NCBI GenBank assembly: GCA_016188625.1 | Contig: JACPHL010000268.1 | Location: forward strand, 1-22,407 | DNA: 22,407 bases | From: Candidatus Rokuibacteriota bacterium | GTDB lineage: Bacteria > Methylomirabilota > Methylomirabilia > Rokubacteriales > JACPHL01 | Direction of reading: 5' to 3' | Part shown: piece by piece, positions 12,587 through 22,182 of the stretch | How positions within the stretch are numbered: position 1 is the first letter of the stretch | Layout: each line of letters starts with the position of its first letter | The notes under the pieces: model-generated | Seen by the model: the letters and a program-made list of their open reading frames with translations, nothing else | Database searches by the model: none | What the model was told of the DNA's origin: nothing | Position numbers and translations under genes: made by a program

Positions 12587-12774
12587 AACTCGGAGGGGGG
12601 CGGAGCCCCCCTCCGAACCTCCCCCAAGATGGCGCGGGCCAAGCCCGCGCTCGGAGCGGACATGCATCTCCGAAAGGTTCCGGGGGGAGGCAGGCCCCGA
12701 AGCCGGTCGCTGAAGAGCGACCGGCCGGCTTCGCCGGGGGCCGTCGGAAGGGGGGCAGCGCCCCCCTCCGAGTT
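12587..12774. repeat. 188-bp hairpin-rich element with 15-bp terminal inverted repeats
   Basis: AACTCGGAGGGGGGC (12587-12601) is repeated exactly in inverted orientation at 12760-12774. Each end is itself a hairpin: 12590-12600 with 12606-12616 (11 bp, 5-nt loop), and 12744-12755 with 12761-12771 (one bulged A). Inside are three more stems: 12632-12639/12643-12650 (8 bp, CAA loop), 12703-12711/12716-12724 (9 bp, GAAG loop) and 12725-12729/12733-12737. There is no coding capacity. The element begins three bases after the TPR gene stop and ends inside the stop codon of the convergent HMA gene. It could act as a bidirectional transcript end and looks like a REP/BIME- or MITE-like intergenic unit. 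Copy number elsewhere cannot be seen. Confidence 0.7.
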
Positions 12775-13078
12775 AGTCGCGCCCGAGGAGCCGGCGGAGC
12801 CCGGACAGGATCGCCGTCGCCTCCACCGGCCCGGGGAACGCCGCCGGGCTCACCGCCTCCGGCCGGTACACGACGCGGGCGTGATCGCCCGCGAGGCTGA
12901 CCTCCACCCGCTCCACCCCTTCGAGCCCTGCCAGGGCCCGGCGGACCCGATCGGCTCAGAGGGAGCAGAGCATCCCCGTGACCGAGATCACCGCCTGCCG
13001 GCGTCCCCCGGGGAGGGGAGTGTCCTCGAGGACCCTGGCGGCCGGCCGGACCCTCCAGTTCCCGAGCTTCAGCTTCAC
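12773..13078 (-). CDS. HMA-domain (MerP/CopZ-like) protein, candidate selenoprotein with in-frame TGA (CxxU)
   Basis: On the minus strand a GTG at 13078 opens a frame of 101 codons plus TAA (12773-12775), interrupted only by TGA at 12958-12956 (codon 41). The product is a 30-residue N-terminal part, then a heavy-metal-associated domain: QAVISVTGMLCSL-U-ADRVRRALAGLEGVERVEVSLAGDHARVVY, then AFPGPVEATAILSGL, matching the ferredoxin-like beta-alpha-beta-beta-alpha-beta HMA fold. The TGA lies exactly where the second Cys of GMxCxxC is expected, and protein similarity continues without a frame change, so selenocysteine insertion is favoured over a pseudogene. A SECIS-like hairpin follows (12922-12940). 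Upstream in frame there is an earlier TGA and no better start; GGGGG precedes the GTG. Its role is probably binding or transfer of soft metals (Cu, Hg) or redox. Gene callers would split or miss it. Confidence 0.72.
12922..12940 (-). promoter_or_regulatory. Candidate bacterial SECIS hairpin
   Basis: Directly 3' of the TGA (minus strand) the RNA can form CGGGCCCU-GGC-AGGGCUCG: 8 bp including one G-U pair, with a 3-nt apical loop starting with G. The loop begins 23 nt after the TGA. Bacterial SECIS elements generally need a G in the first two loop positions at about 16-37 nt from the UGA, so both rules are met. GC-rich DNA makes chance hairpins common, so this alone is weak evidence. Confidence 0.5.
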
Positions 13079-21252: not shown

Positions 21253-21504
21253 CTACCAGGCGACGACGGAATCGGCGGCGAAGATGAGCTCGAGGAGCCG
21301 GGCGTGGCTGATGGCAGGGTAGGGGGAGGCGGTCGCGCCGTCGTCCAGGCGGTAGATCTCGGCCTGGAGGGGGAGGGTCGTCCCCGCAGCCTCCTGCATG
21401 AGGACCACCGAGAGCCGGCAGTCGGGGTCCTGGGCCTGCCGGCTGAGGATCTCGAGCACCTGGCCGGAGGGCGGGGCCTTGAGCAGGTGGAGGAGATGCG
21501 GCAC
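21253..21504 (-). CDS. DsrH/TusB-like small sulfur-relay protein
   Basis: The 83-residue product starts at GTG 21504, six bases after the upstream gene's stop. MPHLLHLLKAPPSGQVLEIL and the closing SHARLLELIFAADSVVAW fit the DsrH/TusB fold, where the protein is the smallest subunit of a DsrEFH-type heterohexamer. A single Cys lies in DPDCRLSVVL. Assignment rests on size, gene order and fold pattern, not on strong sequence motifs. It is last in its operon and convergent with iscX. Confidence 0.6.
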   Translation of the reverse strand: MPHLLHLLKAPPSGQVLEILSRQAQDPDCRLSVVLMQEAAGTTLPLQAEIYRLDDGATASPYPAISHARLLELIFAADSVVAW

Positions 21505-21510
21505 TCGGCC

Positions 21511-21861
21511 CTAGAAGGCGAGGACGCGCTCGCTCCCCGCCACCAGCTCGGCGATCTCGGCGGCCGAGACGGGAACGACCTCGTGCCCCTCCGGGTTCCA
21601 GTCGTCGCCGGTGGGGACAGCCTCGCGCGCGGCATGGAAACGCTGGCCGAGCTTCTTGAGGGTGGCCAGGTGCCTGACGATGTCGTCCCCGTCCACGTAG
21701 TCGTCGGCGCCCGCGTCCAGGAGCTTAGCGCCCCTGCCGGTCAGCACGATCTCCACGGGGGTCTCGCCGGCCACGACCCCCAGGGCGATCCGGAGCGCCT
21801 CGTTGGCCTTGTGGGTTTCCCGGGGATCGGCGGAGATCAGGACCAGGACGCGGGAGGGCAC
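21511..21861 (-). CDS. DsrE-superfamily protein in the DsrF/TusC position
   Basis: A 116-residue protein beginning MPSRVLVLISADPRETHKANEALRIALGVV, the standard first strand-helix of DsrE/F proteins, followed by VEIVLTGRGAKLL and ending in ELVAGSERVLAF. It contains no cysteine, so it cannot itself carry a persulfide; TusC subunits are likewise thought structural. The GTG start lies just before the stop of the preceding gene (gap three bases), so co-transcription is clear. Confidence 0.68.
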   Translation of the reverse strand: MPSRVLVLISADPRETHKANEALRIALGVVAGETPVEIVLTGRGAKLLDAGADDYVDGDDIVRHLATLKKLGQRFHAAREAVPTGDDWNPEGHEVVPVSAAEIAELVAGSERVLAF

Positions 21862-21864
21862 GGG

Positions 21865-22182
21865 CTAGTTGAGGGCGACGAAGCGCTCGCAGCCGTTGAG
21901 AAGGTCGGTGAGGACGACCAGCCCGCAGTAGGCGGCCTTGTCCGTGATGGGGAGCCCCCGCCGCTGGCAGCCGTACGCGCAGACGAAGAGCTTGGCCCCC
22001 TCCCGTCCGAGCTCGAGGACCCGGTCGTCGTCGATCGCCCGGACCCCGTCGTCGATCAGGTAGAGGTAGAGATCCACCCCCGAGGCCAGGGCCTCGCGCG
22101 AGAGGGCGAGGCAGGTCTCGAGGTTGGGGTGCTCGGGGTGGGTGGAAAGCAGGAGGCCGAGCTTTTTGCCCTTGAGATTCAT
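21865..22182 (-). CDS. DsrE/TusD-like persulfide-carrying protein
   Basis: The first gene of the three-gene operon. The 105-residue product starts MNLKGKKLGLLLSTHPEHPN and has the motif FVCAYGCQRRGLP. Cys68 aligns with the active cysteine of DsrE/TusD (C-x5-R-R-G), and an extra Cys72 makes a C-x3-C pair; C86 and C98 are also present. It probably accepts persulfide sulfur. The partners TusA, TusE and MnmA are not in the window, so tRNA thiolation versus another sulfur route is undecided. Proximity to IscS offers a possible sulfur source. Confidence 0.75.
   Translation of the reverse strand: MNLKGKKLGLLLSTHPEHPNLETCLALSREALASGVDLYLYLIDDGVRAIDDDRVLELGREGAKLFVCAYGCQRRGLPITDKAAYCGLVVLTDLLNGCERFVALN

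Follow-up and report, generated by a model that had tools for sequence, protein, structure and literature searches.

Does the region at 12773-13078 of the window (the whole stretch of DNA analysed, 22,407 nucleotides) encode a selenoprotein, its only in-frame TGA being read as Sec at the metal-binding site of an HMA domain? Judging from sequence comparisons, the region is very probably a functional selenoprotein gene with an HMA fold. This confidence covers the selenoprotein claim together with the fold, and excludes the identity of the metal.

The gene, its in-frame TGA and the Sec machinery

Retranslation returned the coordinates, the minus-strand frame and the proper TAA end of the original prediction, with a single internal stop in 101 codons, the TGA at 12958-12956. 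The features considered here are:

12773..13078, minus strand: very probable selenoprotein gene, 101 codons, GTG start at 13078, TAA stop at 12775-12773, one Sec codon; start aligned with those of the relatives
12956..12958, minus strand: predicted Sec codon UGA, residue 41, replacing the second Cys; TGA in 9/9 subfamily members
12965..12967, minus strand: Cys38 codon, first ligand of the CxxU motif; TGC/TGT, Cys invariant in 9/9 members
12842..12991, minus strand: HMA domain, residues 30-79, Pfam PF00403 match
12922..12940, minus strand: candidate SECIS hairpin CGGGCCCU-GGC-AGGGCUCG; same register in Sec-HMA genes, covariation, fit to the published model
12593..12611, minus strand: possible intrinsic terminator, from a pattern scan only; weak, 160 nt downstream of the gene

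With C in place of U, the predicted protein matched Pfam HMA with an E-value of 4.2e-11 and 43.5 bits, above the gathering score of 24.8, in agreement with the domain originally assigned. The alignment also placed the TGA exactly at the second metal-binding Cys of GMxCxxC, as had been proposed; the motif of the window protein is C38-S-L-U41. The ribosome-binding site of the gene is poor.

The original prediction had been made to depend on the presence of Sec machinery, and all components were found in the source genome, a draft of 2.6 Mb in 344 contigs that is 84% complete. The tRNA-Sec (75.7 bits, anticodon UCA), selB (380.7 bits) and the adjoining selA (599.6 bits) lie on the same contig, C273, and selD (395.7 bits), on contig C179, has an in-frame TGA of its own in SHGAGUACK. 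Across the phylum, selB was found in 84/95 genomes, including all nine with a member of the subfamily described below.

Relatives and the candidate SECIS hairpin

Searching 95 genomes of the phylum, we found eight full-length relatives (36-47% identity) in three other family-level groups. Each had exactly one internal TGA and no other stop, so that the scattered stops proposed as a sign of decay were not seen in any relative; the TGA occupies one and the same alignment column throughout the nine members. As these genes come from other assemblies, the argument that a TGA would rarely fall at this site by chance was borne out. Cys38, Leu40 and Ala42 are invariant across the nine members, which carry the motif G[MF][LIV]C[SGA]LUA, a conserved N-terminal start RNLxVxP and, in most cases, a C-terminal end of the TVVLPxxRR type. 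A profile built from the nine scored its own members at 130-168 bits and every other HMA domain of the phylum at 55 bits or less, and because of this gap we regard them as a discrete subfamily.

Cys counterparts exist at the level of the domain, the phylum having 50 CxxC HMA domains. No Cys orthologue of the CxxU subfamily was found, either by scanning the genome contigs for the Cys form of the pattern or with the subfamily profile in the phylum. A profile search of 46 genomes from another phylum identified no subfamily member, and a search of viral contigs and plasmids likewise found nothing.

Bacterial SECIS elements have been modelled with a loop of 3-9 nt, a stem of 4-16 bp, a G within the first two positions of the loop, a UGA-to-loop distance of 16-37 nt and an energy no higher than -7.5 kcal/mol (PMC13188914). 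The window hairpin, with 8 pairs and a 3-nt GGC loop located 23 nt after the UGA, conforms to this model, and the 45-nt stretch from the UGA has a folding energy of -24.0 kcal/mol. Folding of the window sequence downstream of the UGA by itself gave no significant hairpin (z about -1.3). In the same register, stems of 6-8 pairs around a GGN or GTC loop were present in 19/19 Sec-HMA genes of the phylum, while none of the 50 Cys-Cys HMA genes exceeded 4 pairs. Since the register was picked on the nine-member subfamily, the ten other Sec-HMA genes constitute the independent part of this test. A free hairpin scan chose another stem in the three f5 sequences, and the shared register was tested separately.

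Three pairs of the hairpin showed changes on both sides (e.g., CG to UA and CG to GC), and 96.4% of hairpin cells were paired, compared with 86.1% after shuffling and no more than 66.1% when the register was slid. Besides the UGA, the only invariant codons from -14 to +31 were GCC, CTG and GGG, all inside the hairpin; the other invariant residues in this interval vary in codon. By codon usage alone, the chance of these three codons being common to the four lineages is about 4e-4. The ALxGL protein motif eases hairpin formation, with a chance of about 1-20% per gene. The putative SECIS is revealed by comparison across genes and not by single-sequence folding. Together with the relatives and the Sec machinery, this covarying hairpin lends strong support to the selenoprotein reading.

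Fold, proposed function and alternative readings

The fold expected of a Pfam HMA domain is ferredoxin-like, its metal loop preceding helix 1. In a single-sequence AlphaFold model of the protein (pLDDT 70.7), strands span residues 26-33, 55-61 and 66-71 and helices 39-50 and 88-99; Cys38 and residue 41 sit where the first helix begins. Foldseek placed the model nearest to MerP (1osd; TM-score 0.82 by target, the last strand being absent from the model), followed by the Menkes and RAN1 HMA domains and CopZ, and a profile search of the PDB agreed with these HMA neighbours (6ff2, 1cpz, 1osd, 1afi). No signal peptide was apparent by eye in the window protein.

We propose that SelB and Sec-tRNA(UCA) would decode the UGA as U41. 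The product, of 101 residues and probably cytosolic, would have a Cys38-Sec41 pair opening helix 1. Like the ligand pairs of CopZ and MerP, it may bind a soft metal, for example Cu(I) or Hg(II), and the selenolate would then alter metal affinity or exchange. A cytosolic binder or chaperone of soft metals (Cu(I)/Hg(II)-type) appears the most likely role, one that we favour with moderate confidence, followed by that of a redox selenol. The metal role rests on fold and motif, since no metal-resistance genes were found beside the window gene and the neighbours were not conserved across the four lineages. In the window the gene stands by itself, with a TPR gene on one side and a galT-like gene on the other. 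Other subfamily genes are located close to groEL, flanked by der and a gene for a CDP-alcohol phosphatidyltransferase, or preceding a redoxin gene and a CcdA-type gene.

The last of these arrangements was observed in two genomes, at L073 (L073:1716-3483) and L072, where the CxxU gene is followed by the redoxin gene and then by the CcdA-type (DsbD_TM) gene; in L073 the three are co-directional with short gaps.

A selenoprotein with a thiol/selenol redox role, its CxxU motif cycling between a selenenylsulfide and a reduced form, is the alternative that we take most seriously, and we consider it rather unlikely. CxxU serves as a redox motif in many selenoproteins (PMC13188914), and one of the four lineages has the gene immediately before the redoxin gene and the CcdA-type (DsbD_TM) gene, a context that is missing from the other three. 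The Sec is preceded by an invariant Leu, at a position where copper chaperones usually have polar residues, so that the CxxU subfamily differs from them in this respect. The predicted fold, however, is HMA and not thioredoxin-like.

The remaining alternatives dispute that the UGA is productively read as Sec. Any Sec-UGA gives some truncated product, and the UGA could act mainly as a regulatory stop, with a functional product of 40 residues. We find this very improbable, as the UGA precedes most of the conserved residues and a product of that length would be without helix 1 and the strands that follow.

Where divergence sufficed, in two sets, dN/dS was 0.15-0.21 upstream of the UGA and 0.22-0.30 downstream (informative pairs only, the f5 sequences being too alike to judge). 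Because the ratio is low on each side, both sides of the UGA look translated and constrained, and on these estimates purifying selection acts on the part after the TGA.

That selection, together with the conserved hairpin, also speaks against a pseudogene or a sequencing error, in which a chance change would have turned TGC into TGA at the Cys codon. A single substitution turns a Cys codon into TGA, and the window comes from a draft genome; nevertheless, separate assemblies have the TGA in the same column in 9/9 members with no other internal stop, and the relatives refute this explanation, to which we give almost no weight.

Equally negligible, and with no point found in its favour, is a genome-wide reassignment of UGA to an ordinary amino acid, which is refuted by the UGAs that terminate several intact window genes (IscR, IscA, HscB, HscA, ferredoxin and IscX) and 8/9 subfamily members, there being no hairpin in the SECIS register after the terminal stops of subfamily members or of UGA-ending window genes.

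Known families and other Sec-containing HMA genes

Having favoured a selenoprotein that binds soft metals, we compared it with described families. Table 1 of a 2026 review of prokaryotic selenoproteins lists 119 families and subfamilies, split by Sec motif, and its HMA- or Mer-related entries are a UxxU protein, a C/SxxU protein of the MerT type and a P-type ATPase with UxxC (PMC13188914). A small stand-alone CxxU HMA protein is absent from these 119 entries (PMC13188914) and, by the convention of that table of separating Sec motifs, represents a new subfamily. The same review mentions one Methylomirabilota genome in which 63 selenoprotein genes were predicted (PMC13188914), and members of the subfamily may be among these, unnamed.

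The best NCBIfam match of the window protein was NF041115 (UxxU_metal_bind; “putative mercuric reductase” in Table 1 of PMC13188914), likewise a small HMA-type (seleno)protein. The match reached 54.7 bits, below the cut-off of 95 bits, and relatives scored 57.6, 46.7 and 22.3 bits, all under the same cut-off. NF041115 has two Sec (UxxU), whereas the window subfamily has one (CxxU), with Cys first in 9/9 members and with N-terminal RNLxVxP and C-terminal TVVLPxxRR regions of its own. The MerT/CopZ fusion-like selenoprotein NF045683 also has a CopZ/HMA-type domain with Sec, but the window protein lacks the membrane MerT part and scored 19.5 bits, where the cut-off is 375. The MerT-type “putative mercuric transport protein” (C/SxxU) has the CxxU motif in common with the window protein (PMC13188914). 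CopZ copper chaperones and MerP share its predicted HMA fold and ligand position; they carry a Cys-Cys pair in contrast to Cys-Sec, and the window protein fell below both family cut-offs (CopZ, 40.7 of 91; MerP, 24.8 of 92.55). Finally, the cation-transporting P-type ATPase selenoprotein (UxxC; Table 1 of PMC13188914) likewise has Sec in a heavy-metal binding motif, but it is a large membrane ATPase with Sec first, unlike the soluble window protein of 101 residues with Sec second.

The phylum also has two-domain CxxU, UxxC and UxxU HMA proteins, and its UxxU genes carry a hairpin homologous to the window SECIS. Its HMA domains thus comprise four ligand pairs (CxxC, CxxU, UxxC and UxxU), with the hairpin at one common position in the Sec forms; selenium may thus have been tried at either ligand of one metal site. 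Whether the nine members represent a Sec-only HMA subfamily, that is, a dedicated Cys-Sec metal-binding protein without Cys counterpart in a phylum using all four pairs, we consider an evenly balanced question.

The stand-alone CxxU HMA subfamily adds to the 2026 inventory of 119 families and subfamilies, from which it is missing (PMC13188914), and gene callers that read UGA as a stop would overlook its genes. Since related metal-binding domains carry Cys-Cys, Cys-Sec, Sec-Cys and Sec-Sec pairs, the phylum offers a natural experiment, and the contribution of selenium to a metal-binding site could therefore be tested directly, a question usually put only to redox enzymes.

Several other Sec-containing HMA genes were observed. 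In the source genome, L049 (G000:C9) encodes at about 550-780 a MerT-like membrane protein with a terminal HMA domain and two in-frame TGAs (GMTUGSU); this UxxU fusion scored 94.5 bits against NF041115, just under the 95-bit cut-off. Downstream of it, at roughly 1500-1780, lies an HMA-like sequence with the metal loop GMTPTGCSGPPAV, possibly an altered metal site. L055, L056, L057 and L058 are signal-peptide-like proteins with a CxxU HMA domain (GMVCQSUP), accompanied in L055-L057 by a second HMA-like domain; they are a second CxxU type, distinct from the window subfamily and missing from Table 1 of the review. In L052 and L053, also signal-peptide-like HMA proteins, Sec is the first ligand (UxxC). 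In a tree of HMA domains (57 columns), UxxU forms a group and UxxC forms a group, and L052 and L053 neighbour L058, a CxxU protein, as though Sec had switched from one ligand position to the other.

The window also holds a complete isc operon (IscR, IscS, IscU, IscA, HscB, HscA, ferredoxin and IscX). Adjoining it on the minus strand (21256-22182) are two DsrE-like genes plus a small third frame, which together look like a sulfur-relay set of the TusBCD/DsrEFH type.
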